Origin: a virus
Strand: one strand, 5' to 3'
Virus record (IMG/VR): IMGVR_UViG_3300034095_002511
Coordinates: 28,978 to 92,977 of that record
Length of the DNA: 64,000 bases
The notes below the pieces were generated by a model. That model saw nothing but the letters and a program-made list of their open reading frames with translations, had not been told where the DNA came from and searched no databases. Numbering within the stretch: position 1 is the first letter of the stretch; the number at the start of each line of letters is the position of its first letter. The translations under genes and the position numbers were made by a program. This document shows, piece by piece, positions 27,266 through 64,000 of the stretch.

Positions 27266-28024
27266 ATGTTCAAATTGAATTTTAAAAATTACCTTATTGA
27301 AGATTTGTTGCAAGAAGTTTCGTTTAATTGGACTGATCCCATAACTGGGAAAACATATCCAGCGATGCAAGCACCACTTAATTCTGTCAAGTTGTCTAAT
27401 TTTGGTACTGGTTTTGGATATCAATTTAAATCAAAAGAATATGATATTGAGCATTCTGACAATTATGAAGTTCAATTTGAAAATTTCGGCAGAAGATTAT
27501 CGGCTGAAATTGCTAAGATATTTCTCGCAAAACTTTCAATCGATAAGAATTCTGATTTAGGTAAAAAAATTATTGATATATTTTTAAATAATCTAAAATC
27601 AATTTTCAAATTAGATTTATATAGCGAAAAAAGTAATTTTACTCCAAAATTTGGTAAATTTGAAGAAAGCGATCCATTATTTGTATATGCCAATGTGATT
27701 GTTGCAACCAGAAAGGTTATCGAGGAAAAGAATCCTGATGCGTTTTGGATATCTCCCAGTGATCAAGACCCAAGCTTAATATCAATATATGATAGATTTT
27801 ACAAACATTATCTTCACACCCAATACGCTTTTGTTGGATCTGACTTTTATATAAAGAAAGAAAAAATTGATAGCATAATAAGAGATTCAAGAAAAATAGA
27901 TCAATCTTTACCAGATAAACTCATTAAAATAATACAAGATGTAGATTTAGAAAAGAAATCTTATGTTTCTAAAATAAGAAAATTTAAAATGTCTCATAAA
28001 AATAAAGCATCTTCAATATCATAA
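27266..28024 (+). CDS. Head-targeting-tagged protein, family A
   Basis: The N-terminus MFKLNFKNYLIEDLLQE has the tag with two possible cleavage sites, L-I-E and L-Q-E. The C-terminal half shares a pattern with the proteins at 28458 and 38098: a VYANVIVATRKVIEEKNP block, then IYDRFYKHYL, and an FYIKKEKIDSI tail. The three form a paralogous family of unknown fold. A packaged internal head protein is the inference. Confidence 0.7.
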   Translation: MFKLNFKNYLIEDLLQEVSFNWTDPITGKTYPAMQAPLNSVKLSNFGTGFGYQFKSKEYDIEHSDNYEVQFENFGRRLSAEIAKIFLAKLSIDKNSDLGKKIIDIFLNNLKSIFKLDLYSEKSNFTPKFGKFEESDPLFVYANVIVATRKVIEEKNPDAFWISPSDQDPSLISIYDRFYKHYLHTQYAFVGSDFYIKKEKIDSIIRDSRKIDQSLPDKLIKIIQDVDLEKKSYVSKIRKFKMSHKNKASSIS

Positions 28025-28025
28025 T

Positions 28026-28415
28026 TTATTTTAGAAATTTTAATTTGTAAATAGTTTGAAAAGTCAAACCCATAATCTCATCAAGTATATTATGCAAATG
28101 AGTGTCATCTTCATTTAAGTTTTTTCTATTCGATTTGATTACATTGGCAAAATCTTCAAGGTATTTGACAATATCTGATTCTTTTTCAATACTCATGCTT
28201 TCATACCCACTAATAATTCCATATTGGCCTTGGTATGTTTCAATGAATGTATCTGCTAAATCAAGTAGGTCGTTGTAAAAAGAATTTAAAGCTTTATGTT
28301 CGGCATAACTTTTTGTTTGTAAATGAGCAGTATGAGAGACTTGTCTTGCTTCAAATAATTTATAAACTAAGTCTTTAATTTTTCCGCTTGCCTTAAATTC
28401 ATTAATACTTTTCAT
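28026..28415 (-). CDS. Phage protein resembling DUF5856
   Basis: LFEARQVSHTAHLQTKSYAE followed by HKALNSFYNDLLDLADTFIE and QGQYG matches, as I recall it, the conserved core of DUF5856, a helical family seen in large phages. The His/Glu pattern resembles a ferritin-like bundle. The start MKSINEFKASG is weakly tag-like. AGAGG lies before the ATG. It is one of the better arguments for a phage genome. Function unknown. Confidence 0.6.
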   Translation of the reverse strand: MKSINEFKASGKIKDLVYKLFEARQVSHTAHLQTKSYAEHKALNSFYNDLLDLADTFIETYQGQYGIISGYESMSIEKESDIVKYLEDFANVIKSNRKNLNEDDTHLHNILDEIMGLTFQTIYKLKFLK

Positions 28416-28457
28416 TATAACCTCTTGAGAATGCCTTGGTTAAATATATATACATTC

Positions 28458-29075
28458 ATGAAATCGTTTTATCAATATATAAATGAATTGCGGTCTGTTT
28501 TATCAGATTTCAAGCCAGTGGCATTGCAAGGAAGTAAATGGCAATACGACTACCATTTCTATGCTTCTGAAAATGAAAAATATAAAATGAATTTTATAAG
28601 GCATCCAAGAGGAGTCAAAGACTTTCTATTCCAAAAAATGCCAGACTTATTCAAATATGAAAACAAATTTAAAGACGAATTAACAAGACCAACCTATGTT
28701 GTTTTTATGACATTAGAAGGTGCTAAAGATGAACTTTCTCCTAGTGGAAAAAGCATGAATCCATATAAAGTATATTCAGAAGCCTTGAAGTCAATAAAGA
28801 CTGTAATAGACAAGGAAAATCCTGTTGCTTTAGAATTTAGCACTGAATTTGCATCTTTGAAAATTATGTATCATGATTTTTACAAAAGGTTTTCTAGTGA
28901 GTTTGGACTTGTAAAGTTAGGAACTTTTTACATCGATTATAAATTAATTGATAAGATTTTAATGTCTATACCAGAAAATTTAAAAGAAAAATTTATGGAT
29001 CTGATCAAACAAGATTATGAAAAAAGTTCTTCTAACATTAAAAATTTAAAAAGAATAAAAAGAATTGGATTATGA
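28458..29075 (+). CDS. Head-targeting-tagged protein, family A
   Basis: The ATG at 28458 is chosen because it gives the tag MKSFYQYINELRS with an I-N-E cleavage site. The in-frame upstream extension has no ribosome site. The blocks VYSEALKSIKTVIDKENPVA and IMYHDFYKRFSSEF align with the proteins at 27266 and 38098. Its last bases overlap the convergent GT4 gene. A virion internal protein is inferred. Confidence 0.7.
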   Translation: MKSFYQYINELRSVLSDFKPVALQGSKWQYDYHFYASENEKYKMNFIRHPRGVKDFLFQKMPDLFKYENKFKDELTRPTYVVFMTLEGAKDELSPSGKSMNPYKVYSEALKSIKTVIDKENPVALEFSTEFASLKIMYHDFYKRFSSEFGLVKLGTFYIDYKLIDKILMSIPENLKEKFMDLIKQDYEKSSSNIKNLKRIKRIGL

Positions 29076-30107: not shown

Positions 30108-30124
30108 CGCAGTCCATTATCAGT

Positions 30125-36450: not shown

Positions 36451-38031
36451 TTAATAGTTGTCAATACCAATCTGATCAGTATTTAATGACGATTTAATTT
36501 TGTTTATTGCTTGCCCCATATTTGAAAGGGCTTCGATATTTGGAGTTCCACCAGCATTTTTAATGATTTTCATTGTTAATTCGGCAGCATTTCCTGTAGC
36601 ACCATTGCCAGCCAAGCTTGTGATATGCATATCTAATTTACTGTCAAAAACTCTTTTTCCAATAGGATCTAATAGTGGGAAAAATTTATTATGTGCATCT
36701 TTAATTGCTTTTTGTAAAGTTTCATAATCTGTAATATTTCCATCTCTAATGCTTTGAACGATATCTGCTTTGGCTTGTGCGACTGCATTGCCATAACTAA
36801 TTTTTGCACCAATAGCATTACTGAAATCTCCACCTTTACCAGAATATCCAGTATCTTTATGAATATCATTTATGTCAGTATCAGAAACACCAGAGTCTTT
36901 AGCGGCTTTTGTAATTTCTCCTATTTGGTCAGATGAAGGCTTATGAATGAAATTATTGATTGCTTGTGTTCCATAATGACCAATCATACTTCCAGCAGCA
37001 ATAGCCAATACCAATTTAGATGTTTTAACTGGATTGTTGGCCATAAACTTACCAACATTTGCAATACTCTTTTTAAGTACGCTCCAAATGTTTACAAAAG
37101 TTCCAGCACCTTTTCCCAAAACTCTTCCAGCCCTTTCTCCAGTTGCAGTTCCAAATCCTCTTTCTCCGACATCTTTTGCATAATCCTTTGCTCCTTGTGC
37201 AACATTACCAGCAAATTCACCAGCTTTCTTTGCACCTTTACCAACAAGTTGTTTTAACCAACTTGTTAATTCCATGTACATTTCTGGATCTCTAGACATG
37301 ATGTATTGTTCAAATGTAAGATTTCCAGAATTTTGAAAATGATCTTTAATTGATGCGGAATTTGCTGAGGGGTTCATTACATTAAATGTTCCAGCAGGAT
37401 CTGCCATCTTTGGAGAAGAAGCAGGGCTTGCCATCTTTGGAGCAGAGGCAGAGCTTCCTTGCCATGCAGCATCAGCTTGATCTACAGTCGTACCAGTTAA
37501 TTTTTCCCAAACTTTCTCAAATCCTTTATCGGCTAACCATGATCCACTTCTTCTTAATCCTATTGCTATTGCCATCATTGGAATTGCACCAAGACCACCA
37601 GTAGCACCAGCAGAAATAAGAACCGCTGCTGTTACTGGATCGACTTTATATTTTTGTGAAAAAGATTTTGCTAATTCTGATACTTCTTTTGCAATACTTT
37701 CTATTTTCTTTATTCCAGCTTCGCCTTCTGTGGCTTTATAACCTTGTTTGTATCCAGTAACCACACCTTTTGCCAAATTCCCAGTTCCTGTGGCAATATC
37801 CTGTAAACTCATATCTTTATTATTGGCCCAATTCCATGCCTTTCCAGCATATTCCTTGGCTTTATTCCACCAATCGCCCCATGCTTCTAATATGATTGGA
37901 TCATTTCCAAATTTACAAATCATGTTATAGAAAAGTTCTTTGGAATCTTCAAATTGTTGATGATTACTTTCTAGAAAAAATGTCACATCATTTTTTTGTT
38001 GTGCTATAAAAAATTCAGAAAATGTATTCAT
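36451..38031 (-). CDS. Large tagged hydrophobic internal protein, family B
   Basis: N-terminal tag MNTFSEFFIAQQ. Middle hydrophobic hairpin DPVTAAVLISAGATGGLG onward (about 125-160), then FEKVWEKLTGTTVDQAD. A second tag-like motif, LTFEQYIMSRDPEMYMEL (about 238-255), sits inside the chain, followed by an Ala/Gly amphipathic part and another hydrophobic segment (MANNPVKTSKLVLAIAAG). The protein at 61889 has the same order and the one at 53704 a shorter version. It may form or insert into a membrane channel during ejection. Confidence 0.7.
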   Translation of the reverse strand: MNTFSEFFIAQQKNDVTFFLESNHQQFEDSKELFYNMICKFGNDPIILEAWGDWWNKAKEYAGKAWNWANNKDMSLQDIATGTGNLAKGVVTGYKQGYKATEGEAGIKKIESIAKEVSELAKSFSQKYKVDPVTAAVLISAGATGGLGAIPMMAIAIGLRRSGSWLADKGFEKVWEKLTGTTVDQADAAWQGSSASAPKMASPASSPKMADPAGTFNVMNPSANSASIKDHFQNSGNLTFEQYIMSRDPEMYMELTSWLKQLVGKGAKKAGEFAGNVAQGAKDYAKDVGERGFGTATGERAGRVLGKGAGTFVNIWSVLKKSIANVGKFMANNPVKTSKLVLAIAAGSMIGHYGTQAINNFIHKPSSDQIGEITKAAKDSGVSDTDINDIHKDTGYSGKGGDFSNAIGAKISYGNAVAQAKADIVQSIRDGNITDYETLQKAIKDAHNKFFPLLDPIGKRVFDSKLDMHITSLAGNGATGNAAELTMKIIKNAGGTPNIEALSNMGQAINKIKSSLNTDQIGIDNY

Positions 38032-38097: not shown

Positions 38098-39021
38098 ATG
38101 AGATTTAAAAATTGGATAATTATAAATGAATTAGAAGACCCATTTAAAGCTGATACATCTTCCGTTAAATTTGATACTTATATGTCTAGAAGTGGAGAAA
38201 GTGGCTATAAATCAGATTTTGTTTCTGATGATGGCAAACATACTATCTTTTTTACTGAAAAGAGTAGAACTGGCTTTCCAAATATGAAGTGTTATGATGT
38301 CAATCTTACAGATCCTTATGGCGGTTATAATCTTACTAATAAAAGTAGAAACCCATCTGCCGTTTATTCAAGCTTGGTTAAGATAGTATTGGCTTTTGTA
38401 AATCAATTTAAACCAGAACTTATTTCTTTCTTGTCTTCTGATCCAAATATGGAAGTTATGTATAAAAGATTTTACGATAGATATATGAAAGACATGTATC
38501 CGATAGTTCAATATGGCTTATTTCTTAGAAAAGATCTTTTTGACAGAATGAAAAATAAAGAAAAATCAGAAAAAGCTTTAAAAGATTGGGATACAATAGC
38601 TGGAGAAGCAAAGGAAACCAAAAGGGTTATTCAAAGATTTTTGAAAAGTCTACCTTTGTTACAAAACAATTTTGTAAAAAAATACATAACTTTAGATCCA
38701 TCTAAAATTGCACATACTGGAATGATAGACAAAGATTTTCCCAAAAAACCATTTGTTATAGTTCCAACTGGTGTAAAAATGGAAGATGAATTTGTGGTCG
38801 TCAAGTTTTATTTCATCTCAAAAAATAAAAGATTAGATTTTGCAAAGGCTTATTTTGTTGTGCCTAATTTCTTTTCTGCATTTAAGAATACTATAGAAAA
38901 AAGGAAGTCTTCATTTTTAAAATTGTCACTGTTGGACAAACATAGGATTTCATCAACAGTAACAACACCAGATCAAATACCTTTGGCCGATTTTACAAAT
39001 GTAATAAAAGAATTGTCTTAA
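38098..39021 (+). CDS. Head-targeting-tagged protein, family A
   Basis: The tag MRFKNWIIINELED has an I-N-E cleavage site. The middle carries VYSSLVKIVLAFVNQFKPEL and VMYKRFYDRYMKDM, aligned with the proteins at 27266 and 28458. The C-terminal 130 residues (from about 175) are an extra part absent from those two. No enzyme motif. Divergent from the family B gene at 36451-38031, with AT-rich sequence between. Confidence 0.7.
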   Translation: MRFKNWIIINELEDPFKADTSSVKFDTYMSRSGESGYKSDFVSDDGKHTIFFTEKSRTGFPNMKCYDVNLTDPYGGYNLTNKSRNPSAVYSSLVKIVLAFVNQFKPELISFLSSDPNMEVMYKRFYDRYMKDMYPIVQYGLFLRKDLFDRMKNKEKSEKALKDWDTIAGEAKETKRVIQRFLKSLPLLQNNFVKKYITLDPSKIAHTGMIDKDFPKKPFVIVPTGVKMEDEFVVVKFYFISKNKRLDFAKAYFVVPNFFSAFKNTIEKRKSSFLKLSLLDKHRISSTVTTPDQIPLADFTNVIKELS

Positions 39022-39082: not shown

Positions 39083-39595
39083 ATGCAATTTAAAAATTGG
39101 TTACTTCAAGAAGAAATTAGTATTAGAATTAAAAAACAATCACATGATCATGATTGCGGTCCTGCTGCTCTTTTTTCTATTTTATCTTATTTTAATATTA
39201 AAAAAATCGAATATAAAAAGTTAGTTTCATTGTGCAAAACAAATAAAAACAAAGGAACTAGCCCTGATAATATTATAGCAGTAGCTAAAAATTTCGGCCT
39301 AAAGGTAAATAAATATAATAAGATGAGTTTGAATAAGTTGCAAGATTTTACAAATCAAAAAAAGCCAGTATTAGTACCAATTCAATCTTGGGGCAATGAT
39401 AAAAATAAAAAATTATTTAATAGTGGCCATTATGTTATTGTTACCAAAGTAGATGAAAAATTTGTTTATTTTAAAGATCCTTATTATAAAAGCAAAGACA
39501 ATAGAAAGATGCAAAAAAGTGAATTTTTTAGTATTTGGGTAGATAAATTGAATGATAAAAAAATACACCAATTTGGAATAGTTTTTGAACATTGA
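39083..39595 (+). CDS. Tagged C39-family cysteine peptidase
   Basis: The tag MQFKNWLLQEE (L-Q-E site) is fused to a peptidase C39 domain: HDHDCGPAALFSIL with catalytic Cys25, GHYVIV with His116 and FKDP with Asp132. C39 domains usually cut leader peptides after double Gly at ABC exporters, but here there is no transporter part. The domain fills the whole chain (170 aa). After tag removal the enzyme would be packed in the head and perhaps injected. The peptidase call is strong, the packaging is inferred. Confidence 0.85.
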   Translation: MQFKNWLLQEEISIRIKKQSHDHDCGPAALFSILSYFNIKKIEYKKLVSLCKTNKNKGTSPDNIIAVAKNFGLKVNKYNKMSLNKLQDFTNQKKPVLVPIQSWGNDKNKKLFNSGHYVIVTKVDEKFVYFKDPYYKSKDNRKMQKSEFFSIWVDKLNDKKIHQFGIVFEH

Positions 39596-39746: not shown

Positions 39747-40361
39747 TTACCTTGCAACTCTACCTTGTTGTGGCATTTGTTCTGCTCCTGTTGACACTCC
39801 TCTAGAGAATGAAATGTTGGATGGAGCAGGTGCAGAGGCACGAGCAGCAGGTGGTCTTCCTTTTGCTGCATTGGTGAAGTAATCATCTGCACTCTTTTGA
39901 ATCGCTTTATTTTGTCCAGGCTTACTTGCACCAGCAGACTTAGCTTGTGCAGTCTGTTGTTGTTTGTCTAAATGATCTTTAGCTGCCTTATAATGCTTAT
40001 CGTAATTTTTAACAATTGAACCCATAAACAACTTGAATGCTGGGTCTGTAGATTTATTGATGATATCATTTACTCTGTTTAGATCAATTTTGCTATAAGC
40101 ATCTGCTGTACCTTTAGCAAAGTCTTTAGCACCTTGAATGACAGTTTGTCCAGTTGCAGAAATGGCCTTATCACCAAGATTTAGTGCTGCTCTTCCTACA
40201 TCCCCAGCACCTTTTAGTGCTGCTTTTCCAGCACCCAAAAGACCAGAGCCTAATCCTTGGGCAGCAGCACCAGCAGCACCAACAAGGCCACCAAACATAC
40301 TTTCATCTACATTATAATCATCACGCATTTCGACATATTCATGGAAAGACTTCATTCTCAT
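39747..40361 (-). CDS. Tagged Ala/Gly-rich internal protein
   Basis: The start at 40361 (MRMKSFHEYVEMRDD) is chosen from the GAGG six bases before it. The tag is followed by a YNVDES element and a Gly/Ala-rich, membrane-active-looking stretch (FGGLVGAAGAAAQGLGSGLL). The RD...DES pattern also occurs in the protein at 53234. The C-terminal half is a low-complexity Ala/Gln/Pro/Ser region. It is probably an internal head protein. Confidence 0.65.
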   Translation of the reverse strand: MRMKSFHEYVEMRDDYNVDESMFGGLVGAAGAAAQGLGSGLLGAGKAALKGAGDVGRAALNLGDKAISATGQTVIQGAKDFAKGTADAYSKIDLNRVNDIINKSTDPAFKLFMGSIVKNYDKHYKAAKDHLDKQQQTAQAKSAGASKPGQNKAIQKSADDYFTNAAKGRPPAARASAPAPSNISFSRGVSTGAEQMPQQGRVAR

Positions 40362-48363: not shown

Positions 48364-48768
48364 TTATTGTCCTTTAAATTCTTGACCTTCTTCTGCTGAT
48401 TCTTCTTCTGGAACTTCTTGAAAAGCTGCTTTAATTTCTTTCATAAGCATAGTTCTTGCACTTGAATCTTGAATTCCTTCATCATCTACCATTGCTTTGT
48501 GTAATGAGTTTATCAAGGTTTTTGCCAAGTTTTTTAAATTTGCTCTAGTTAAATCAGTTTTATCTAATCCATCTAAAAATATTTTTAACTTTCTGTCTAA
48601 ACCATGACCTATTTTCATTTCATCTTCTGGTGATTGTGATGGTGATGGTGCTGGTGCGTCCATATCTTCGTACAAATTAGGATTTTTGCTTACATTTCCA
48701 AGTTGATCCATCACACTTGCCCACCATGTCGCTTCACTGATAGGTTTTTGATTAAAATATTGACTCAT
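48364..48768 (-). CDS. Small protein with variant head-targeting tag
   Basis: MSQYFNQKPISEATWW matches the N-terminus of the 522-residue protein at 61889 (MSHYTNQRIITEQEWW). I-S-E is a good prohead-protease site. AAAGGA is seven bases upstream. The middle is Pro/Ser-rich and the C-terminal half helical and acidic. Possibly a scaffold-like or internal head protein. Confidence 0.6.
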   Translation of the reverse strand: MSQYFNQKPISEATWWASVMDQLGNVSKNPNLYEDMDAPAPSPSQSPEDEMKIGHGLDRKLKIFLDGLDKTDLTRANLKNLAKTLINSLHKAMVDDEGIQDSSARTMLMKEIKAAFQEVPEEESAEEGQEFKGQ

Positions 48769-50009: not shown

Positions 50010-50510
50010 ATGAAAAGCTTTAAAAATTGGTTTAATGAAAATTTCGATAATGTCTTTATGCATCCTAATCGTAAAAGGGCTGTAAGTGTATTGGATAGCT
50101 CTAATGGATTAGTTTACAAGACTAAAAATCCACCAATAGAATCATTACCAGAAGGTGCAACAGAAATAAGCAACCCTCACATAACATTAATAGATCCTAG
50201 CGAAATGCAAGAATTTAAAAAGAAAATTAAAGAACTATTAGAAAAAGATTATCCAGAATTGCAAGACTTGCCAAAGCCAGTCTTTGGAAGACAAGTTGTA
50301 ATTACTCGCCATAATGGAAATCAATTTGTTATTGCAGATATATCTAATCAAGAAGATTTTCACAATTATGTTTCAAAGATATGGAGAAAGTTAGAAGTTC
50401 CTAACAAAGAAAGAAAATATTTTTACATGACACTTGCTAATAATAGTAATGGAGATCCATTGGTTCTTACAGGAGACATTACTAAAAGAAACTTTGAGGA
50501 AAAATCATGA
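50010..50510 (+). CDS. Tagged 2H-phosphoesterase-like protein
   Basis: The ATG at 50010 gives the tag MKSFKNWFNENFD (F-N-E). NPHITLID provides a first HxT motif (His57, Thr59). The second expected HxT is FYMTLANN, with Tyr in place of His, so activity is uncertain. The fold fits 2'-5' RNA ligase and tRNA-end phosphoesterases. A TATAAAAT box lies directly before the ATG. It overlaps the next gene by four bases. Confidence 0.6.
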   Translation: MKSFKNWFNENFDNVFMHPNRKRAVSVLDSSNGLVYKTKNPPIESLPEGATEISNPHITLIDPSEMQEFKKKIKELLEKDYPELQDLPKPVFGRQVVITRHNGNQFVIADISNQEDFHNYVSKIWRKLEVPNKERKYFYMTLANNSNGDPLVLTGDITKRNFEEKS

Positions 50511-50941
50511 ATTTTAAAAATTGGATTGAAAGCGAACAACCTTTAAAATCTATAAAAGAAATAGAATCTTTAAAGCCAATGATAATATCAAAAGCTCAAC
50601 ATATTTATGATAATTGGAAACAAGATGATCAAGGACATGATGAAGAATATGGTGGTGGTGGCATTTGTCATAATATCGCAGATGAAATCGCAAGTGTTTT
50701 AAATGATAATGGAATTGATGCAGCTACAGTTTCTGCTACAGTTGGAACACAACATGTTTACACAATTGGAAAATTTCAAGAGGGTGTTTATGAAATTGAT
50801 ATTTATCCAAGCACATATGAGACTGGTGCAGCTTATACTTGGAAAAAAATACCTAATGTTAAATTCGACAATGATGACATTGTTGTTAGCAGAATAGATA
50901 GTGATCCAGAATCATTTGATACTTACATGGAAGATTTTTAA
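50507..50941 (+). CDS. Tagged papain/transglutaminase-like protein
   Basis: The tag MNFKNWIESEQ is followed by YGGGGICHNIADEIASVL with Cys54, GTQHVYTIG with His83 and VYEIDIYPSTYETG with Asp98, the Cys-His-Asp order of transglutaminase/papain-like hydrolases. 144 residues. Translationally coupled to the 2H-like gene. The exact activity (peptidase, amidase or transglutaminase) is open. Confidence 0.65.
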   Translation: MNFKNWIESEQPLKSIKEIESLKPMIISKAQHIYDNWKQDDQGHDEEYGGGGICHNIADEIASVLNDNGIDAATVSATVGTQHVYTIGKFQEGVYEIDIYPSTYETGAAYTWKKIPNVKFDNDDIVVSRIDSDPESFDTYMEDF

Positions 50942-51009: not shown

Positions 51010-51804
51010 ATGATTAATATGAAAAGTTTTAATTTGTACTTGGTTGAGAAACAATTCGTTAAATTAAACTCTTTAAAAATGAAAGATATCTATTGTTTGA
51101 ATGAATCAGATCAAGTAAATGAAATTCTATCGTTAGCTGCAATTGGTGCGTACAAAACGGCAAAGGCTGGTTTGTCAGCAGCATATAATGTAACGAAATT
51201 CGGAATGTCAGTTTTAAAAAAAATAATTGGAATAAAACCCCAAAAAATAGAAGAAGAAATTAAAGACAAAGATAAAAAAATTGTTATCAAAGAATTTTTG
51301 AAAAGTGCAGTAAAAAAATTAGGTATAGTTGTAGTTGTTGGAGCATTGTTATATCTTGGATTGCAACATGGAGTTATCACAGATTTACTCAGTTGGACGG
51401 GGCAAATGGCTTACAAAGCATTGATGTATATTTTGGGTCTTGGAGGAAACACCATTTGGAAAATATTAATGGAAGCTTGGAATGCAATAAAAGATTTTGC
51501 TGGTGCTATTGGTGATTATATTGGTGCTATTGTTTCAAAAACTGGAGAGCTTGCGGAAGATCAAATGGAAAAAGTAGGTCAATATATGAAGGATTTATTT
51601 AAGAAAACTGGTGGAACATTTGGGAATCCCGATGGTGGTAATCCTTGGGAAAACCCACAAGAAAAAGATTGGCAAGGCAATCAGCGTACTGTTTTAACAC
51701 CAAAAGAAAGCCCAAAACCAATAGACTGGGATGGATTAAAAGATACTTTTGGCTCAGACAAAAAAAAATTAGATCCAAATATTTTAAATTTTAAAAGTAA
51801 TTAA
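51010..51804 (+). CDS. Tagged membrane-active protein
   Basis: MINMKSFNLYLVEKQ contains the tag with an L-V-E site. TGAGG lies four bases before the ATG. Hydrophobic segments follow at about 40-65 and 100-150 (LGIVVVVGALLYLGLQHGVI), then a soluble Gly/Pro/Asp-rich tail. Like the other hydrophobic tagged proteins it could insert into membranes on ejection. First gene of the cassette between the two 25-bp repeats. Confidence 0.65.
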   Translation: MINMKSFNLYLVEKQFVKLNSLKMKDIYCLNESDQVNEILSLAAIGAYKTAKAGLSAAYNVTKFGMSVLKKIIGIKPQKIEEEIKDKDKKIVIKEFLKSAVKKLGIVVVVGALLYLGLQHGVITDLLSWTGQMAYKALMYILGLGGNTIWKILMEAWNAIKDFAGAIGDYIGAIVSKTGELAEDQMEKVGQYMKDLFKKTGGTFGNPDGGNPWENPQEKDWQGNQRTVLTPKESPKPIDWDGLKDTFGSDKKKLDPNILNFKSN

Positions 51805-51813
51805 TGAGGCGAT

Positions 51814-52356
51814 ATGATTACATTTCAGTCTTTTTTAAAAAAACAAATTTTAATAGAAAAGATAAATATTGATGCCTTTCAATTTCCGCCATTAGCATAT
51901 GGAAGTTTTGGCAAATACTTTATAGCAGGTGATGGAGAAATACATTATCAAGTTGCAGGAGAAGGCGGAAATCAAAATGGAATCGCTCATGTAAATAACT
52001 TCTTGCCAATATATCAAAAATTCTTTTCTCAACATATAACACCAGAAATGGCAAAACAATTTAAAGAAAAATATACAAAAAACATGGCAGATGAAAAAGA
52101 TGAGATATCAAAAAACAATTTGCCATTCCCAGAAATTTTTAATTCGCCATTTGCGAAGTGGATTGTAGATAATGATGAAGTAATTTATAAAATAAAAACA
52201 GCACAGGGAGAACAACAAGGGATTTCTTCAATCAAGGAATTTGATGCTTACTATAAACAAAATATTGCTAACTTCGGAAACAATCAATTGGCAAATATAA
52301 ATCCAGAAGAAAAAGAATCTATCAAACAAAAGTTGAATAAAGAAATCGAAAAATAA
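51814..52356 (+). CDS. Head-targeting-tagged hypothetical protein
   Basis: Tag MITFQSFLKKQILIEK with an L-I-E site. The leader is almost the same as that of the gene at 51010 (20 of 22 bases). The protein has two YKI/YQV-type repeats (EIHYQVAGEGGNQNGIAHV and EVIYKIKTAQGEQQGISSI), an internal duplication. No known domain. It ends directly at the right 25-bp repeat. Confidence 0.6.
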   Translation: MITFQSFLKKQILIEKINIDAFQFPPLAYGSFGKYFIAGDGEIHYQVAGEGGNQNGIAHVNNFLPIYQKFFSQHITPEMAKQFKEKYTKNMADEKDEISKNNLPFPEIFNSPFAKWIVDNDEVIYKIKTAQGEQQGISSIKEFDAYYKQNIANFGNNQLANINPEEKESIKQKLNKEIEK

Positions 52357-53233: not shown

Positions 53234-53689
53234 ATGAAAGAATATACATTTAAAAAGTTCTTAGAACAAAGAGATCCTAAGTTTTATGACGAATCACTTA
53301 TGGATATAGCAACTGCTGGAATAGAATCTGGAATTTCTGGTGTCGGTTCTGGACTTTGGGATTTCGTTAAAAAACTTTCAACCAATTCTTTGAAAGCTGC
53401 TGATTATGCTTTTGGTTATGAATTCGAAAGAAATTATAATCGTGAAATACCTACAGACACAAGCTTCGACAGAACCATGAATGTTTTGAAAAAAATAGTA
53501 GAACCATTTTATTCTGGTTTGAAAACTGGTATTGGAAAAACTATGTCTAAGTTTGATGAAATAAGAATCAAACAATTAGAAGAAATATCAAAAGATCCAA
53601 AGGCCAAGAACATGTTAAATCAATTTGTTCAAAAAAACCCAGAAACAAAAAAAGAATTAGATAAATTTGTATATAAATTAGCCAATTAA
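53234..53689 (+). CDS. Head-targeting-tagged protein
   Basis: The ATG at 53234 gives MKEYTFKKFLEQRDPKFYDES, the tag with the RDP..Y.ES extension also seen inside the 36451 protein. A TATAAATT box lies one base before the ATG. A Gly-rich stretch (ATAGIESGISGVGSGLWDF) follows, then helices. 151 residues. It is probably related to the protein at 39747. Confidence 0.65.
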   Translation: MKEYTFKKFLEQRDPKFYDESLMDIATAGIESGISGVGSGLWDFVKKLSTNSLKAADYAFGYEFERNYNREIPTDTSFDRTMNVLKKIVEPFYSGLKTGIGKTMSKFDEIRIKQLEEISKDPKAKNMLNQFVQKNPETKKELDKFVYKLAN

Positions 53690-53703: not shown

Positions 53704-54549
53704 ATGAAAACATTTTCACAATATATTGAACATCGTAATGTTAACGAAGCTTTTTTTGATAAAATGAAACAAGGATTTCAAGCATCTTATCAAAGTGCAA
53801 AAGGTGATGAAAAAGAAAACGCAAGCCAAACAGATGAGCAATATAAAAAAGCAAAAGAAATTGCACATAAAGCAATAAATGTTGGAAAGTCAATGTCCGA
53901 TAAATTAAATAAGCTTGGTTTGTCTTTGCCTTTTGCTGCCACTTTAATAGCTGCTGGTATGACTGGTGGTGCTGCTGCAATTCCAATTGCTTTATTATCA
54001 AAAGTTGTAAGTGATGAAATAATTCATTACGCTGCAAAAGGATTCGATAAAGTTACTGATATGACAGTTGGAAAAGTTCCAGCAATGGCAGAATCATCTT
54101 TTATTGATAGAACTGGAAAAATGATTTCTGGTGCTATGGATAAAGCTGGCGAAACAATTGGTGGCGGTGCTGGATTCATTGCTGGAAAAACAAGTAAATA
54201 CTATTCAAAATTAAGAACAATGGCAGAAAAATCTATTGGTGATATTATGTTGTTTTTAGGAAATAACAAAAGATATTTGGCAAAAGCATTATTTTTGTTT
54301 GCTGTTGGACATGTGATTGGATCGGGTATTGGAAATGCAACTAATTTTTATGCCAAAGATAGTTTAGATTCTGTCGCATCTTCTCTTGCTGGTGTTGGAG
54401 GTGTTGATCAAAGTGAATTACTTTCAATCATGAAAAATGTTGGTAACGAGGTTTCTAAAGGAGTCGATATTGGTTTGCATGCTGCTCCTCATTTGCCTAG
54501 CAAGTTACCAAATTTGTCAGCACTTAAAAATGTGAGTCAAGAAATTTAA
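53704..54549 (+). CDS. Tagged hydrophobic internal protein, family B
   Basis: Tag MKTFSQYIEHRNVNEAFF. Hydrophobic hairpin LPFAATLIAAGMTGGAAAIP (about 75-95), then FDKVTDMTVGKV, a Gly-rich helix and a second hydrophobic segment (LAKALFLFAVGHVIGSGI). The order matches the larger proteins at 36451 and 61889. 281 residues. It is in a run of plus-strand tagged genes. Confidence 0.7.
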   Translation: MKTFSQYIEHRNVNEAFFDKMKQGFQASYQSAKGDEKENASQTDEQYKKAKEIAHKAINVGKSMSDKLNKLGLSLPFAATLIAAGMTGGAAAIPIALLSKVVSDEIIHYAAKGFDKVTDMTVGKVPAMAESSFIDRTGKMISGAMDKAGETIGGGAGFIAGKTSKYYSKLRTMAEKSIGDIMLFLGNNKRYLAKALFLFAVGHVIGSGIGNATNFYAKDSLDSVASSLAGVGGVDQSELLSIMKNVGNEVSKGVDIGLHAAPHLPSKLPNLSALKNVSQEI

Positions 54550-54550: not shown

Positions 54551-55798
54551 ATGAAATTTAAACAATGGTTATTTTCTGAAGAATTAGAAACTATAGACAC
54601 TCAAATGTCGATCCCAGAGGAATTAGAAGAAATAGCACACATCATGAATGCACATGGCAAAACATGCTATGTAGTCGGTGGTGCTGTAAGGGATCATCTC
54701 TTTAATCATTTTCACGACATGAAAAAAGACATAAACGACTATGATCTAGCAACAGACGCACTTCCAGAAGAAACAAGAAAAATAATTCATAATACAACCA
54801 TAGCCAATGGAAGATTTAAATTAGAAATATTCGAGAAGGGAATAGACCAAGGAGTCCTTTCCATCATTGTTAAAGACATGGATGGAAAAAAGAAAGATGA
54901 ATTTGAAATAGCAACTTTCAGAAAGGAAGTCTATTCTGGCAATTCAAGAACACCAGAAAAAACAGAATTTGGAGCGACACCAGAAGAAGATACTAAAAGA
55001 AGAGACTTGAACTATAACGCTTTGTTCTATGATACAATAAACAAAAAAGTAAAAGATTATAATGACGGAAAAGGCATTAAAGACATAAAGAACAAACACA
55101 CAAGTGTGGTCGGAGATCCATTCCAAAGATTCTATGAAGACAAACTTAGAGTTCTGCGTGTAGTTAGATTCTTTAACAGATACAATCGTGACAATATAAT
55201 GAGTCATCTTGACGATAAAACCAAAATGGCAATAGCTGAATTCAAAAACTTAGAAAATGTCAGCAAGGAAAGAATCAACAAAGAATTTCTTTCTGGTTTA
55301 AAGCAAAGTCAATCTCCAGCTAATTTCATCAAGTCTTTAAAAGATTTGGATCTCATTCATAATATCATGCCAGAAAGAATAAAAATTCCAAAATTGGAAC
55401 CTCTTGATCAAATGAACAATAATCTTTCTGCTATGATTGCTTACATCCTTAGTGAAGAAGTTCCTAATAGGAAGCTGTCTGATATGCTGATACAATACAA
55501 ATTCGAACACGATGTTCTTACTCCTGCGATCATAATTTTAAAAGCATATAACATGTTCAAGAATCCAATGAGCCACGAATACAAAATTCATGATATATCC
55601 AGAGAAATGAAGAGAGTTACTTATAAGTCCATAGAATCATTCATGAGTCATTTCGGATTTGAGAATGAATCTAAGAGATTATTTGAACACAAGCCTAAAT
55701 ACACTGGTGCAGATGTGGCACACCTTGGATTAAAAGGAAAAGATATAAGCGATAAACTTGATCAAATGGAAAAGGACAACTTCTTCAATGTACAATAA
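54551..55798 (+). CDS. Tagged CCA-adding enzyme (tRNA nucleotidyltransferase)
   Basis: Tag MKFKQWLFSEELE. Class II nucleotidyltransferase head: GGAVRD (43-48), then DYDLATD with the catalytic Asp63 and Asp65, RRDLNYNALFYD and a helical neck. These enzymes add or repair the 3' CCA of tRNA. Phage copies are known, but a copy with a head-targeting tag is unusual. One base after the previous gene. It overlaps the next gene by 11 bases. Confidence 0.9.
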   Translation: MKFKQWLFSEELETIDTQMSIPEELEEIAHIMNAHGKTCYVVGGAVRDHLFNHFHDMKKDINDYDLATDALPEETRKIIHNTTIANGRFKLEIFEKGIDQGVLSIIVKDMDGKKKDEFEIATFRKEVYSGNSRTPEKTEFGATPEEDTKRRDLNYNALFYDTINKKVKDYNDGKGIKDIKNKHTSVVGDPFQRFYEDKLRVLRVVRFFNRYNRDNIMSHLDDKTKMAIAEFKNLENVSKERINKEFLSGLKQSQSPANFIKSLKDLDLIHNIMPERIKIPKLEPLDQMNNNLSAMIAYILSEEVPNRKLSDMLIQYKFEHDVLTPAIIILKAYNMFKNPMSHEYKIHDISREMKRVTYKSIESFMSHFGFENESKRLFEHKPKYTGADVAHLGLKGKDISDKLDQMEKDNFFNVQ

Positions 55799-57887: not shown

Positions 57888-59108
57888 TTAGATTTTTTCC
57901 TCTGGCATTTCTTTTGGTTTTTCAATGTCTGCAAACTTTTTGTACATTTCTTCTTCTGACAAAAAGTTATATGCAGTTCCATCAGCAGTTTTTATATTTT
58001 GAAAGTGTGTTGGGAATCTATAAAATCCTAAATTGTTTTTGTTAATATAACCTACAACTTGATGTTTTACATTGAATGAAGACTGGTCTGTAAAATTGAA
58101 ATTAAATCTACCTACAAGTTTTCCACCATCAATAGAAATTTCTATTGTTTTCATTGTAAAATCACTATTGTCTTTGGCCTTCTTATCAACAATTGGGCCT
58201 ATTTTATTGATCATTCTCGATTTGAAAAATCCCGACATTGAATCCCATCTATTTTTTGATAGCTTATTTACAATTTCATTTGTATTTTCTACTTTTTCTA
58301 TAGTCAAATTTTTATAGTCAAATTTGAAAAGCTCTAAAATATTAAAATACATAAATTGACGCATTATCTTTACCATATCATCTTTATTTGAAATTTTGTA
58401 ATTTTTTACTTTTTCAGAATTAATTTGAAATTTATTTAATAGATCGTTTTTATAACTTTCGATAAATTCTTGTTGTTTGCTTTCTAGCACTTGTTCGACT
58501 TGAGTCGATAATTTGCCCATTGCCATTTTTGATGCTAGAGGTCTCATGAACAATTCTTTTTTCTTGCGTTCCTCATCTTCACTTTTTTTCATCGCTTTAA
58601 AATCTGCTGGAGTCTTTACTTTTTCTTTAAGATCATCTATCTTTTTCTTGGCTTCTATATAATCCATAGAATATGCCAACATACCCTTACAGGCTTGTTG
58701 CACTTCTTCTGGGAATGAATCAATATATTTCTGATTTGATTTTTTAGTTAGCAAACTATATCTCTTAGAACCGCTTGCCCACCTTAAGTCGCTTATAAAA
58801 ACATGTTCCAGATTAGATTTTAATATGAAATGTGGAGCATAATTAGTGGGATCTAATTTATTTTTTTCATATTCTCTTTTATCATATTCTTTGGAAAATT
58901 TTGCAAACTCTTCAAGATATGGATCACTAGTTGAATCTTCAAATGTATCTTTCAACTTTCTATACTGATCTTTTGTAAGATGATTTGCACTTAATGCTTC
59001 TTCATATAATTGCTTTAACTTTTCAAATTTACCTTCAATTGCATATTTTTCCATTTTCTTAATGGCATCATTATTTTCGTCATTTTCTAACCAAATTTTG
59101 AATTTCAT
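57888..59108 (-). CDS. Large head-targeting-tagged protein
   Basis: The ATG at 59108 gives MKFKIWLENDENND, a clear tag. The rest (about 390 aa) is charged and helical, with a possible coiled coil at about 140-230 and a strand-rich C-terminus (GGKLVGRFNFNFTD). No enzyme motif. Divergent from the ADP-ribosyltransferase-like gene. Confidence 0.65.
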   Translation of the reverse strand: MKFKIWLENDENNDAIKKMEKYAIEGKFEKLKQLYEEALSANHLTKDQYRKLKDTFEDSTSDPYLEEFAKFSKEYDKREYEKNKLDPTNYAPHFILKSNLEHVFISDLRWASGSKRYSLLTKKSNQKYIDSFPEEVQQACKGMLAYSMDYIEAKKKIDDLKEKVKTPADFKAMKKSEDEERKKKELFMRPLASKMAMGKLSTQVEQVLESKQQEFIESYKNDLLNKFQINSEKVKNYKISNKDDMVKIMRQFMYFNILELFKFDYKNLTIEKVENTNEIVNKLSKNRWDSMSGFFKSRMINKIGPIVDKKAKDNSDFTMKTIEISIDGGKLVGRFNFNFTDQSSFNVKHQVVGYINKNNLGFYRFPTHFQNIKTADGTAYNFLSEEEMYKKFADIEKPKEMPEEKI

Positions 59109-59180: not shown

Positions 59181-61352
59181 ATGAACTTTAAACATTGGCT
59201 ACTATCTGAAGAAATATTCCCCAATAAGACCGCAACTGTCTATCATAGAACATGTCAAGATTGCAATAAAGATGATAGCGTCAAAGCCGTATCAAGTATA
59301 CTCACAAAAGATTACAAAGTTGGCTCAGGTTGTATGTACGGTTGTGGTCTTTATACTACTTTTGCAATAGAAAGCCAATTTACCAATTATATGCAAACAT
59401 ATGGTCAAGCAGTAGTCAAATTTAAAGTGGAAGAACTAGACAAATATCTCATATTTCAATTATCTGTGGCAAAACAAATACATGGCAAGGATTATAAAAT
59501 AAGCGATCAATTAAAGAAATTAGGACTACTAAACAAACCAAATGTAAATGAAATTAAATTAAAATATTACGATGAACAACAAGAAAAAGAAAAATACTCA
59601 TCAGCTTTAGCAAAACAATTCTATGAACAAAATGGTTGGATAGTAAATTCGGTAAAAGGAATTATCTATTATGGGGCAAATGATGGTTATTGTTTAGTGA
59701 AATATCCAACAGTTAAAGATGGAACAATAACTATGTTGGGTTATGCAGTCGCAGAACCTAATAATATGAAAAAGATGGAAGAACTAAAAAGTAATATTGG
59801 TTGGATAAAATCGGTTGGAACATTAGGCACAGCTTTTAAAACTACCTACAAGGCTCCAGAAAAAATGAAAGAAAAACTTGCGTTTGGCAGCAATACTGAA
59901 ATTGAAAATGTCAAAAGTATTTTTTTGAATTCTAAAAACTTAGAACGAACAGCAAAAAAATTAGAATCAAATTTAAAAAAACTTTCTGATAAAGATATTT
60001 CTGATTTACTTGATAGAGCAAGTGACAAAGACCAAATGGCAGAAGTAATTATAAAATACATACCAGAACTTTATGGCGAAATTCTTGTTTCATTGTTTAG
60101 AAATGCAAAAGACAAAGACAAAGTTTCAGAACTAATTATAAACTACAACCCAAAATTTTCTCGTAATAATGTTTATCATTTGATTTCTTATTCAACTGAC
60201 AAAGACAAAATAGCACAACTTATTATTGAAAAGCATCAAGAAATTTCTGATAGTGATGTTTATAGTTTGGCTGTAAATACAAAAGACAGAGACAAAATAG
60301 CACAACTAATTATCCAAAAGAAATCAAACCTTTCTGACAAAAATGTTGGTGATTTGATTTATGCTGCAATCAACAAAGAAAAAATAGCAGAATTGATTAT
60401 TGAAAAGAAACCAGAACTTTCTGATAATAATGTTTTTAATTTGATTCAATTTGCAAATGATAAAGAAAAAATAGCAGAAATAATTCTAAACAAAAATCCA
60501 AAACTTTCTGATGATACTGTTGAAAATTTGCTTCTTAAGGCAAATGACAAAGAAAAAATGGCAGAATTAATTATAAGAAAAAAACCAGAACTTTCTAATA
60601 GCAATGTTTATAGTTTACTTGGTACTGCAACTGATAAAGACAAAATGTCAGATCTAATTATAAGATACAAAAAAACAAATCTTTCTAATAGTAATGTTTT
60701 TCATTTGCTTTTTTATTCAAAAGATAAAGACAAAATAGCAGAACGGTTAGGATCAGATAATATAAGCAAACTTTCTGATAAAAATATTTCTTCTTTGCTT
60801 GATAATGCAATTGATAGAAGAGAACAAATGGCAAAAATAATTATAAAATATAAAGAAAATCTTTCTGGTGATGATGTTTCTTATTTGACTTCTAATCTAA
60901 AAGATAATACTGAAATTTTAGAACTTATTTTAAATAATTTAAGACAAAGTAAATATCCAGTTCATGACAAAGTCATAGGATGGATTTTCGACAGATCAAA
61001 AGATAAAGATAAAACTATAAATGATATTATCCAAATTCTAAAAGAAAAAAATCAAGAAATTTCTATAGTGGCATTTCAATATTTTGTTCAATACGCAACA
61101 GACAAATTAAAAATGGCAATGACCTTGATTAAAATTAAAAAACAACTCAGTCTTGAAGAAGCTTCTATTTTGATCAGAAATGCAAAAGATATAAATGAAA
61201 TGGTAAAATTGATTGATAAGCCATATTCATTTTTGAAATCACTCACTAGTTTGGATGCCTTTAGATATAAGAAATCGCCAGAAGTACAAGATATGATAAA
61301 CCAAGAACTAAAAAGAAGAAAAAGAATTCGCTTCAGTAGTGACTTCGACTAA
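59181..61352 (+). CDS. Tagged ADP-ribosyltransferase-like protein with 29-residue repeats
   Basis: The ATG at 59181 gives the tag MNFKHWLLSEEIF (L-S-E). The next 200 residues carry TVYHRT (21-24 YHRT) and GSGCMYGCGLYTTF, a pattern like the H and Y motifs of PARP/ART folds; the final catalytic Glu is not certain. From about residue 266 there are at least ten 29-residue alpha repeats, each like LSDxxVxxLLxxAxDKDKxA followed by ELIIxKxPE. T4 Alt is a packaged ADP-ribosyltransferase with a similar tag, so an injected host-modifying enzyme is the attractive reading. 723 residues. Confidence 0.6.
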   Translation: MNFKHWLLSEEIFPNKTATVYHRTCQDCNKDDSVKAVSSILTKDYKVGSGCMYGCGLYTTFAIESQFTNYMQTYGQAVVKFKVEELDKYLIFQLSVAKQIHGKDYKISDQLKKLGLLNKPNVNEIKLKYYDEQQEKEKYSSALAKQFYEQNGWIVNSVKGIIYYGANDGYCLVKYPTVKDGTITMLGYAVAEPNNMKKMEELKSNIGWIKSVGTLGTAFKTTYKAPEKMKEKLAFGSNTEIENVKSIFLNSKNLERTAKKLESNLKKLSDKDISDLLDRASDKDQMAEVIIKYIPELYGEILVSLFRNAKDKDKVSELIINYNPKFSRNNVYHLISYSTDKDKIAQLIIEKHQEISDSDVYSLAVNTKDRDKIAQLIIQKKSNLSDKNVGDLIYAAINKEKIAELIIEKKPELSDNNVFNLIQFANDKEKIAEIILNKNPKLSDDTVENLLLKANDKEKMAELIIRKKPELSNSNVYSLLGTATDKDKMSDLIIRYKKTNLSNSNVFHLLFYSKDKDKIAERLGSDNISKLSDKNISSLLDNAIDRREQMAKIIIKYKENLSGDDVSYLTSNLKDNTEILELILNNLRQSKYPVHDKVIGWIFDRSKDKDKTINDIIQILKEKNQEISIVAFQYFVQYATDKLKMAMTLIKIKKQLSLEEASILIRNAKDINEMVKLIDKPYSFLKSLTSLDAFRYKKSPEVQDMINQELKRRKRIRFSSDFD

Positions 61353-61419: not shown

Positions 61420-61830
61420 ATGCAATTTGTAAAACAAGGTTCTGGATGTATCATTTTGGCCAAAAACACAAAAAAAATACTGCTTCCTCATAGGTCTAAG
61501 CAAGTTGGTCAACCAAATACTTGGGGAACTTGGGGAGGTTTTTCTTCCCCTGATGAAATTCCACAAGAAACAGCAAAAAGAGAACTAAGAGAAGAATCTG
61601 GATATAATGGAAATATCGAACTAATCAAATTATCAACCATGAATTGGTTTGTATTTAAATATCACAATTTCTTGGGAATAATAGATGAAGAATTCACTCC
61701 ATGTTTAAATTGGGAAACTCAAGATTATAAATGGGTCGAATTTGGAAATTGGCCATCACCCATTCATTTTGGACTACAATGGCTATTAGAAAAAGATAGC
61801 AAAATTATAGAAAAATTAGTGCATATGTAA
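61420..61830 (+). CDS. Nudix hydrolase
   Basis: The Nudix box is complete: G40, E46, R54-E55, E58-E59 and G61 (GX5EX7REUXEEXGU). 136 residues, single domain, no tag. It hydrolyses nucleoside diphosphates linked to another group; substrate unknown. It may clean up or use nucleotide sugars or NAD-type compounds, which would fit the ART-like neighbour. Confidence 0.93.
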   Translation: MQFVKQGSGCIILAKNTKKILLPHRSKQVGQPNTWGTWGGFSSPDEIPQETAKRELREESGYNGNIELIKLSTMNWFVFKYHNFLGIIDEEFTPCLNWETQDYKWVEFGNWPSPIHFGLQWLLEKDSKIIEKLVHM

Positions 61831-61888
61831 CATTAATTTCCTTCATCGAACCACATAGATACCATATTATCAACAAATATGAGGATCT

Positions 61889-63457
61889 ATGTCACACTAC
61901 ACAAATCAAAGAATTATTACAGAACAAGAATGGTGGAATAGCTTAAGAAGTCAAATAGGACAAACTACTTATTCAGAATCTTATTGCGTTGATCTAAATG
62001 AAATGGATTTTCTCGATCCATCTAAATCACCAATTCTTCAAGGTGCTAAGAACTTTGCAGGTGGACTTTCTACAGGTCTAAAGCAAGGATATGACAAAGG
62101 TGCCAAAGATGTTGAGGAACTTGGAAAGTTTCTTACCCCAGGGATTTTAAAAACTATTGAAATAGTCGCAAATGTGTCACAAAAATTTGCAGACAAAGTT
62201 GGGATATCACCAGTTACAGCAGCTATGATTGTTGGTATTGCAGCAACTGCACCCGCTGCTCTTCCTGCATATATTCTCGCTTTATCACTAAGAAGAGTTG
62301 CGACAAATTTAGCCAACAAAATGTATGATACAGCATGGGAAAAACTAACTGGCAAAACAGTCGAAGAATTAGATAAAATGTGGGTAGATTGGAAAAGTAA
62401 AAACCCAACAGCCGCAACTCCTAAAGTAGTTGCAGATTCATTTGACTCATTCAATTCATTCTTAAGAAATAAAGATATAAACTTATACCAAAAAATTTAT
62501 TTGGAAAATGAGTACCAAGAAGATGCAAGAGGAGTTGGAGAATTTTTAGGTAAAGGTCTTGGTTATGGTGCTGGTGCTGGAGTTAGCATTATATCAAATT
62601 CAATTTCTAGTATCGCCAAATTATTTTCTAGTGTTATGAAAATGATAGCAAACAATCCGGTAGCTACTGGCAAAGTCTTGTTCGGTGTAATCATAGGTTA
62701 TTATGTCGGTAAACTTGGAGCTAAAGCAACAGAAAAAGTCACAGATATGATTCAAGGAAAATTGTCAGCAGCCGAAAGTGATGATATTAGAAAAGTTGCT
62801 GAAAAAGTTGGGGTTCCACAAAAAGAAACTGATGATATATTGGGAGACAAACTTCAGAATGCTGCAAATTCTCTTGATCCATCAAAGATATCAAATTTGA
62901 TTAGAAATCCAGATTTGATAGATGCAATGAAGAAAACAGATTTTTATGATAATACGCTTCATGCACAAATATTAAAACAAGCAATAACTGAAAAATCTGA
63001 CAAGGCGAAAGATGTTTTGTGGCATTTATTGTTTAAAATGGGAAATGATCAAGACCGAATAGCAGATTTAAAAGATGTTATATCAACCTACAATAGTTCT
63101 GAATTAATGAATCGTTTTAATGAATATCAATTGAAGCACAATTCTTTTGTAAATGGTATTTTCGTGAAATTAAAAGCTTTATCTTCTGCTGCTGGAGATT
63201 CTGGACTAAATCCAAAAGATGCTGAAGATGCAAGAAGGGAGGCTGTTAGTGCTGGTTATACCCTTCGATCATTTATATTTAGTTCTGATGAAATTAAAAA
63301 TTCTGGTGGTAGTGTTGCAAAAAGTGCATTAGATGTAGTGGCACCAGCAGTTAAGGCGGCAGCGAAGGTAGTCACAGATGATCCACGAGATATCTTTAAT
63401 TATAAAGGCCAAGAAGTTTCAGACTTTATTGATAGTTTGCCGACCCCTAAAAAATAA
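61889..63457 (+). CDS. Large tagged hydrophobic internal protein, family B
   Basis: Variant tag MSHYTNQRIITEQEWW with I-T-E; GAGG lies before the ATG. Same order as the 36451 protein: hydrophobic hairpin SPVTAAMIVGIAATAPAALP (about 110-130), then TAWEKLTGKTVEELD, a second tag-like element DSFNSFLRNKDINLY (about 186-200), a Gly-rich helix, and MIANNPVATGKVLFGVIIGY. The C-terminal third is helical. 522 residues. Confidence 0.7.
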   Translation: MSHYTNQRIITEQEWWNSLRSQIGQTTYSESYCVDLNEMDFLDPSKSPILQGAKNFAGGLSTGLKQGYDKGAKDVEELGKFLTPGILKTIEIVANVSQKFADKVGISPVTAAMIVGIAATAPAALPAYILALSLRRVATNLANKMYDTAWEKLTGKTVEELDKMWVDWKSKNPTAATPKVVADSFDSFNSFLRNKDINLYQKIYLENEYQEDARGVGEFLGKGLGYGAGAGVSIISNSISSIAKLFSSVMKMIANNPVATGKVLFGVIIGYYVGKLGAKATEKVTDMIQGKLSAAESDDIRKVAEKVGVPQKETDDILGDKLQNAANSLDPSKISNLIRNPDLIDAMKKTDFYDNTLHAQILKQAITEKSDKAKDVLWHLLFKMGNDQDRIADLKDVISTYNSSELMNRFNEYQLKHNSFVNGIFVKLKALSSAAGDSGLNPKDAEDARREAVSAGYTLRSFIFSSDEIKNSGGSVAKSALDVVAPAVKAAAKVVTDDPRDIFNYKGQEVSDFIDSLPTPKK

Positions 63458-63473
63458 ATAGGAAAAATTATAT

Positions 63474-64000
63474 ATGATTACATTTATTGAATGGTTATTA
63501 GAAAATACAGAACCACAAAGTTTTACATTAAGTGATAAGAACATTGTGCCAGAATGGGTTTACAATATTTTTGTTGAGTCTTATCTTAAATCAACAGGAA
63601 AAGCATGGGATATGAACACATTCCTTGGAAGATCAAGATCATGGACTTTTTTTGGAATACCACCAGAATCTGAACATGATCCAGCAGCAGGATTTGTTTG
63701 TGTTAGATTTCAAAATTCAGGTTTAGTAAAATTAACAGGAGTTGCAGGAAGTACTAGAGCTATTCTAAAAGGATTAAGTCTTGTTGATAATCTCAACAAA
63801 CCTGTTTGGGGTGCTGTAAGTGATAGTATAGCAAGCATGGCAGAAAAAAGAGGATTTATAGTGCCACCACCAGAAACTATGAAAATGATGGCAATGTTTA
63901 TACCAAACCTAAGTGTAAATGATTCTGGTGATGTACAAGCTCATGTTATTGGAGTTGGAGATGTAAATAAAAAAGTTATTGTTAATCAAAAATATATGGA
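63474..64000 (+). CDS. Tagged hypothetical protein, 3' end outside window
   Basis: Tag MITFIEWLLENTEP (L-L-E). The visible 175 residues include WTFFGIPPESEHDPAAGFV and SIASMAEKRGFIVPPPETM. The fold is not clear; the end VKLTGVAGSTRAI... could be an acyltransferase-like core, but no motif is decisive. It starts 16 bases after the family B gene and runs past the window end. Confidence 0.6.
   Translation, partial: MITFIEWLLENTEPQSFTLSDKNIVPEWVYNIFVESYLKSTGKAWDMNTFLGRSRSWTFFGIPPESEHDPAAGFVCVRFQNSGLVKLTGVAGSTRAILKGLSLVDNLNKPVWGAVSDSIASMAEKRGFIVPPPETMKMMAMFIPNLSVNDSGDVQAHVIGVGDVNKKVIVNQKYM

Follow-up and report, generated by a model that had tools for sequence, protein, structure and literature searches.

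The window analysed here is a stretch of 64,000 nucleotides (bases 28978-92977 of the 92,977-base IMG/VR record IMGVR_UViG_3300034095_002511, which is classed as linear), and the element in question is a short N-terminal sequence, referred to below as the tag, with which otherwise unrelated proteins of the encoded phage begin. Near-identical IMG/VR contigs, in which matched proteins are 100% identical, lengthen the window on both sides to approximately 184 kilobases (kb) with roughly 230 genes, all called as simple longest open reading frames (ORFs). The window is a piece of a huge-phage genome with a G+C content of 30%; because both ends of the 184 kb halt in repeats, this fragment is incomplete. 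Scans of the fragment turned up DNA polymerase III alpha, ThyX, IF-3, ribosomal protein S21, and tail-fibre and collagen-like proteins. The closest named phage is LR756511 (uncultured, 595 kb, 42% G+C), whose polymerase is 50% identical and which has 59 genes in common with the window phage.

Tagged genes of the window

The initial annotation described the shared beginning of 19 proteins as M-[KNRQ]-x-F-x-x-[WYF]-[LIVF]-x-x-E. Taken literally, this pattern has no match at any ATG on either strand, because the distance from Met to Phe ranges from 2 to 5 and the position of Glu is not fixed; the shared N-termini, however, are confirmed, since all 19 genes start with the core M-x(1-4)-F-x-x-[WYF]-[LIVF]. 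LR756511 and IMG/VR contigs supplied 200 non-redundant tags for a profile with BLOSUM pseudocounts, from which T4 and the window phage were excluded. With this profile, trained solely on other phages, the 19 tags score 7.9-21.2 bits; in the same scan, just 2 of the 951 interior Met codons score at least 7 bits. The tagged genes, and three others discussed with them, are as follows (lengths in amino acids, aa).

1228-1584, plus strand: tagged ORF, 118 aa, begins MKDFSFKNWFKINE; member of a small 'YPLGYGGIGLYP' family that also bears the tag in relatives; 14.7 bits; TAAATA at -10
1585-1875, minus strand: tagged ORF, 96 aa, begins MLTNFYEWMSFRQAVE; 11.0 bits
27266-28024, plus strand: tagged ORF, 252 aa, begins MFKLNFKNYLIEDLLQE; profile; TAAATA at -10
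28458-29075, plus strand: tagged ORF, 205 aa, begins MKSFYQYINE; pattern and profile
36451-38031, minus strand: tagged ORF, 526 aa, begins MNTFSEFFIAQQ; pattern and profile
38098-39021, plus strand: tagged ORF, 307 aa, begins MRFKNWIIINE; pattern and profile
39083-39595, plus strand: tagged C39-type cysteine peptidase domain, 170 aa, begins MQFKNWLLQEE; homologue in LR756511 tagged too; TAAATA at -10
39747-40355, minus strand: tagged ORF, 202 aa, begins MKSFHEYVEMRD; pattern and profile
43737-44042, plus strand: tagged ORF, 101 aa, begins MKTFYQYLEG; pattern and profile
48781-49953, minus strand: tagged ORF, 390 aa, begins MNFKQWFFNE; pattern and profile
50010-50510, plus strand: tagged ORF, 166 aa, begins MKSFKNWFNE; pattern and profile
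50507-50941, plus strand: tagged ORF, 144 aa, begins MNFKNWIESE; pattern and profile
51019-51804, plus strand: tagged ORF, 261 aa, begins MKSFNLYLVE; starts 9 nucleotides inside the gene first placed at 51010
51814-52356, plus strand: tagged ORF, 180 aa, begins MITFQSFLKKQILIE; 7.9 bits, the lowest of the 19
53234-53689, plus strand: tagged ORF, 151 aa, begins MKEYTFKKFLEQ; pattern and profile
53704-54549, plus strand: tagged ORF, 281 aa, begins MKTFSQYIEHRNVNE; pattern and profile
54551-55798, plus strand: tagged tRNA nucleotidyltransferase (CCA-adding type), 415 aa, begins MKFKQWLFSEE
57888-59108, minus strand: tagged ORF, 406 aa, begins MKFKIWLENDE; pattern and profile
59181-61352, plus strand: tagged, 723 aa, begins MNFKHWLLSEE; 'ATVYHRT..GLYTTY' N-domain and C-terminal helical repeat
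63474-64000, plus strand: tagged ORF, 190 aa, begins MITFIEWLLE; truncated by the window end; tagged homologue in the relative contig G020
48364-48768, minus strand: N-terminus MSQYFNQKPISE..WW, distinct from the tag
61889-63457, plus strand: begins MSHYTNQRIITE..WW; N-terminus in common solely with 48364-48768
61420-61830, plus strand: untagged NUDIX-type protein; tagged homologues in contigs L086 and L121

Some details of the initial annotation had to be revised. Five positions listed there as starts (36451, 39747, 48781, 57888 and 48364) mark the left-hand limits of genes on the minus strand, which in fact start at 38031, 40355, 49953, 59108 and 48768. The gene at 1585-1875 had been overlooked. 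Furthermore, the proteins at 48364 and 61889, regarded earlier as variants of the tag, share a different N-terminus, MSxYxNQxxIxExxWW, which is seen in this phage only. This sequence contains IxE and is possibly a second head signal. Two further regular-expression matches were judged to be no tags: an internal Met of a PrkA-type gene and a Met in the methyltransferase-like gene at 44399-45028, the G020 relative of which starts differently.

In the 184 kb, the strict core with a following E is found at 36 of 229 gene N-termini but at none of 667 interior windows containing a Met (p = 5e-23), and the profile from other phages identifies approximately 38 convincingly tagged genes. This is indeed far above the number in T4, as had been proposed: LR756511 has approximately 36-50 such genes, whereas T4 has three. 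The enrichment recurs in LR756511 (40/1018 N-termini vs. 9/1958 interior windows) and in the IMG contigs G006 (19/247 vs. 0/777) and G009 (22/241 vs. 1/651). No significant excess of tags and no S77 family match were found in phiKZ, G, SPO1 and CcrColossus; the control phages, apart from T4 and LR756511, are represented by samples of 120-280 kb each. Since synonymous codons differ, the shared N-terminus is a protein-level feature and not a DNA repeat.

Resemblance to the T4 internal-protein signal

The first ten residues of the T4 internal protein IPIII are enough for packaging, with residues 4 and 7 serving targeting and residues 8 and 10 serving processing (PMC9026906). These four residues match, in order, two aromatic positions, an aliphatic one and a Glu, all conserved in the huge-phage tag. 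When the profile was run over 251 T4 ORFs, IPI ranked first, IPII second and IPIII third, which amounts to two independent successes rather than three because the tags of IPII and IPIII are identical. The processed T4 head proteins Alt, gp67, gp68, gp22 and gp24 score nothing, and the likeness is thus specific to internal proteins. A first profile, made from the window phage alone with F fixed, had placed IPI 2nd, IPII 13th and IPIII outside the top 20 and was later superseded. In contrast to T4, the second aromatic residue of the huge-phage tag is most often Trp instead of Phe, and the spacing between Met and F is variable.

The T4 prohead protease gp21, a member of the S77 family, cuts after [LI]-x-E, and the suggestion that many tags hold a site of this type is borne out by the pooled tags. 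When columns were shuffled among sequences, which preserves the composition of each position, [LI] was expected two residues before an E after the tag in 76.8 cases (sd 6.0), whereas 130 were observed (z 8.7); spacings 1, 3 and 4 were not enriched in this test. In a strict set of 164 tags on bodies without detectable homology to one another, spacing 2 retains a z of 7.0, and each of five data sets taken singly shows enrichment of [LI]xE at p <= 0.006 (p 0.006 in the window phage alone). Overall, [LI]xE is present in 112 of 233 tags, compared with 20 expected.

Cleavage after Glu is not peculiar to T4, as many head-packaged proteins of SPN3US and phiKZ are cut after this residue by a prohead protease (PMC5694885). 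The tagged proteins would resemble these inner-head proteins in their number and in a cut after Glu, if they are indeed packaged and processed. Nonetheless, most propeptides of these giant phages are long and cleaved at A-x-E in SPN3US, or at related motifs in phiKZ, whereas [AST]xE is not enriched here (37 observed vs. 48.7 expected by column shuffling), and [ASG].E, which would suit the [SAG]-x-E cleavage of the phiKZ/SPN3US type, occurs in 30 tags vs. 25 expected. In phiKZ itself, the tag pattern is not significantly enriched, and PF03420 gives no match.

Head genes, detachable tags and an upstream element

Relatives that bear the tag also encode a head module of the T4 type. With T4 as the positive control, an S77 (gp21-type) protease was found in LR756511 (E 7e-28) and in 8 of 18 IMG/VR records chosen for tag-pattern matches; His and a Ser-x-Arg-Gly motif are invariant between these proteases and T4 gp21. 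The LR756511 head module follows the T4 order, namely terminase, portal, protease, a coiled scaffold-like protein and a gp23-type major capsid protein. G020, a 70.6-kb relative contig, combines a head module of this type with 21 tagged ORFs out of 86 and carries both tagged and untagged genes homologous to those of the window. Among 94 loci chosen by the protease alone, tagged ORFs number 94 of 881, compared with 5 of 3488 interior windows, and 61 of the 94 loci have tags.

The tag behaves as a detachable module. It precedes otherwise unrelated proteins, which fall into 170 body-homology clusters, and homologues are tagged for 29 of 38 tagged genes vs. 5 of 248 untagged genes. The untagged NUDIX-type protein at 61420 has 58-65% identical homologues (L086, L121) with a 21-aa tag extension, which indicates that the tag is detachable. 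Similarly, untagged Atu_ph07 homologues are known for the CCA-adding enzyme at 54551, without its first approximately 19 aa, and for a 2H-type protein encoded outside the window, without the tag extension. In a homologue of a tagged DUF6321 protein (L071:367, minus strand), a basic, Cys-containing leader precedes a tag-like stretch. The family of 1228-1584 has a YPxGYGGxGxYP-like stretch, and its members include LR756511 71311 and 589654, G009 97006, G020 27674 and one in L118.

Tagged genes are also marked by an upstream element. In LR756511, the sequence TAAATA starts 9-13 nucleotides, mostly 10-11, upstream of the ATG of 18 of 60 tagged vs. 21 of 958 untagged genes (p = 1e-13). The corresponding figures are 6/37 vs. 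4/192 in the window phage and 8/29 vs. 5/212 in G009; in G006, the difference between tagged and untagged genes is not significant. The untagged G006 genes with TAAATA include those for the tail tube protein and a tail sheath stabiliser; thus, tagged genes have a signal in common with virion genes. TAAATA corresponds to the 3' portion of TATAAATA, the core of T4 late promoters; T4 itself shows no TAAATA peak at 10-11 nucleotides before ATG. The element could be either a late promoter fused to leaderless genes or a translation signal. A search for the T4 late sigma factor gp55 gave a weak match in G006 (E 4e-4) and none that was convincing in the window phage.

Other genes of the fragment include, in the left extension (L011, approximately 2117-5443), a phage-encoded PrkA kinase and YeaH-type DUF444 protein, after which comes a gene for a 1369-aa protein that appears SpoVR-like by eye, so that a host stress operon would be carried on the phage. 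Genes for translation initiation factor IF-3 and ribosomal protein S21 lie in the left part (L001:11432-11986 and other genes). An attempt to derive the host from two GTDB metagenome-assembled genome contigs with related proteases (an actinomycete bin and a Neisseriaceae bin) was uninformative.

Proposed cargo and interpretation

Most tagged proteins of the window phage have no Pfam match. Those recognised comprise the C39-type peptidase, the CCA-adding enzyme, a NUDIX protein, a weak 2H-type match and an L5 gp82-like protein, together with DUF6321 and DUF5872 at sub-threshold scores. Tagged proteins of relatives add ART-PolyVal (E 2e-18), a PARP-like domain (E 2e-4, below the curated cut-off), AAA_33 kinases, GNAT, HAD, FMN reductase and AAT. 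Recognisable enzymes of this kind set the huge-phage cargo apart from the internal proteins of T4. Some tagged proteins of relatives are ADP-ribosyltransferases (ARTs), as is the head-packaged T4 protein Alt, although the N-terminus of Alt lacks the tag (rank 135/251) and the ART identity of the 59181 family is unproven. This family, which joins an N-domain to helical repeats, has three further tagged paralogues just outside the window, and its N-domain possibly has an ART fold. AlphaFold models of two tagged families are confident mainly in the C-terminal helical repeats, for which a PDB fold search returned solenoids, and the N-domain profile found nothing in the PDB; the ART assignment for 59181 is therefore a guess. 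To the right of the window (L014), as well as in L088 and L108, tandem tagged paralogues carry two alternative N-domains on similar helical repeats and look modular and effector-like; in one L108 protein, the repeats appear ankyrin-like by eye.

This repertoire overlaps that of the polyvalent proteins of phages and conjugative elements, which are predicted to be packaged and injected (PMC5512222), in ART, GNAT, 2H, nucleotidyltransferase and peptidase domains, and ART-PolyVal itself occurs on a tagged protein. However, in polyvalent proteins many domains are fused, whereas here they are mostly separate proteins, each with the same short tag; where Pfam matched a tagged protein, it recognised one type of domain, with no second effector domain on the same chain. 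Internal proteins of T4 act as inhibitors of GmrSD restriction enzymes (PMC12373910), which makes counter-defence the most likely common purpose of the cargo. By analogy with these proteins, an enzyme-rich cargo fits host takeover and counter-defence.

Taken together, the ranks of the T4 internal proteins, the [LI]-x-E spacing, the head module of tagged relatives and the abundance of tags at loci chosen by protease make it highly probable that the shared N-terminus is a capsid targeting sequence (CTS) of the T4 type, by which the proteins bearing it would be packaged, cut and delivered, in line with the initial annotation. Unrelated proteins would be brought into the assembling prohead by their first 10-20 residues, in which aromatic-x-x-aromatic-aliphatic is followed by [LI]-x-E; there, a gp21-type S77 protease would cleave them after [LI]-x-E, and the freed proteins would remain in the head and reach the next host cell with the DNA. 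We infer that the window phage has the same head module as its relatives and that its tagged proteins are packaged, cut and delivered. The phage probably delivers a large enzyme kit into the bacterium along with its DNA.

Several observations weigh against this interpretation. Neither terminase, portal, capsid nor prohead protease is among the matches listed for the 184 kb; the initial annotation had regarded such an outcome as contradicting packaging, but the fragment has unassembled ends. S77 and Gp23 searches of the window record and four near-identical contigs likewise gave nothing, and when a head contig of the window phage was sought via the proteases of relatives, no contig from the same samples was found. 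The jumbo phages RaK2 and Atu_ph07 have S77 and no tags, which means that the protease does not imply the tag. Approximately 7 of 33 window-phage tags are without [LIVMF]xE in the listed stretch, and in the window phage taken by itself, spacing 3 shows the same degree of enrichment as spacing 2, so this subset is by itself not specific. In the L071 homologue, the tag-like stretch lies approximately 30 residues in. Finally, no virion proteomics was found in the literature for this uncultured lineage.

Among the alternatives, the most substantial is that the tagged proteins are parts of the prohead core or scaffold, which would be packaged and cut but would be structural or degraded rather than delivered. 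The T4 scaffold protein gp22 is degraded by gp21 (T4 record note), several tagged proteins are small and without domains, and tags also occur within the head gene cluster. Nonetheless, we consider this explanation unlikely, as many tagged proteins are mutually unrelated enzymes (C39-type, CCA-adding, NUDIX, ART, kinases, GNAT) and the tagged set, unlike a scaffold, differs among relatives. It could also be argued that the N-terminus targets something else, such as a phage nucleus, infection vesicle, membrane or replication complex, with an accidental likeness to T4, given that jumbo phages sort proteins between compartments (PMC13282480) and that some S77-bearing jumbo phages lack the tag. The placing of the T4 internal proteins at ranks 1-3, the protease-specific spacing of [LI]xE, the tag-rich loci selected by protease and the absence of tags from the recognised replication proteins (DNA polymerase III alpha and ThyX) render such a target very improbable.

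Even less credence can be given to the view that the N-termini are alike through recent duplication or through an AT-rich codon bias favouring F, K, W and L at starts. Tagged paralogous arrays do lie to the right of the window, but 164 strictly non-redundant tags precede bodies without detectable homology, interior Met controls are nearly empty, LR756511 has 42% G+C, and synonymous codons differ.

Returning to the T4-type CTS, the signal is carried by three internal proteins in T4, and at least ten internal proteins have been reported across related phages (PMC12373910); no paper on an expansion such as that described here was found among open-licence papers. We lean, with some reserve, towards the broader view of a widespread huge-phage lineage in which one swappable tag loads tens of effector enzymes per virion and the cargo genes are co-switched by the TAAATA late element. 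Dozens of tagged enzymes per genome would provide a sequence rule for predicting head-carried proteins from metagenomes alone, which would make the question of injection by giant phages directly testable and provide many candidate enzymes for counter-defence and host takeover; it could also be attempted to load proteins into phage heads by means of the short tags. If this view is correct, the tagged cargo would represent the phage counterpart of the effector repertoire of a secretion system.

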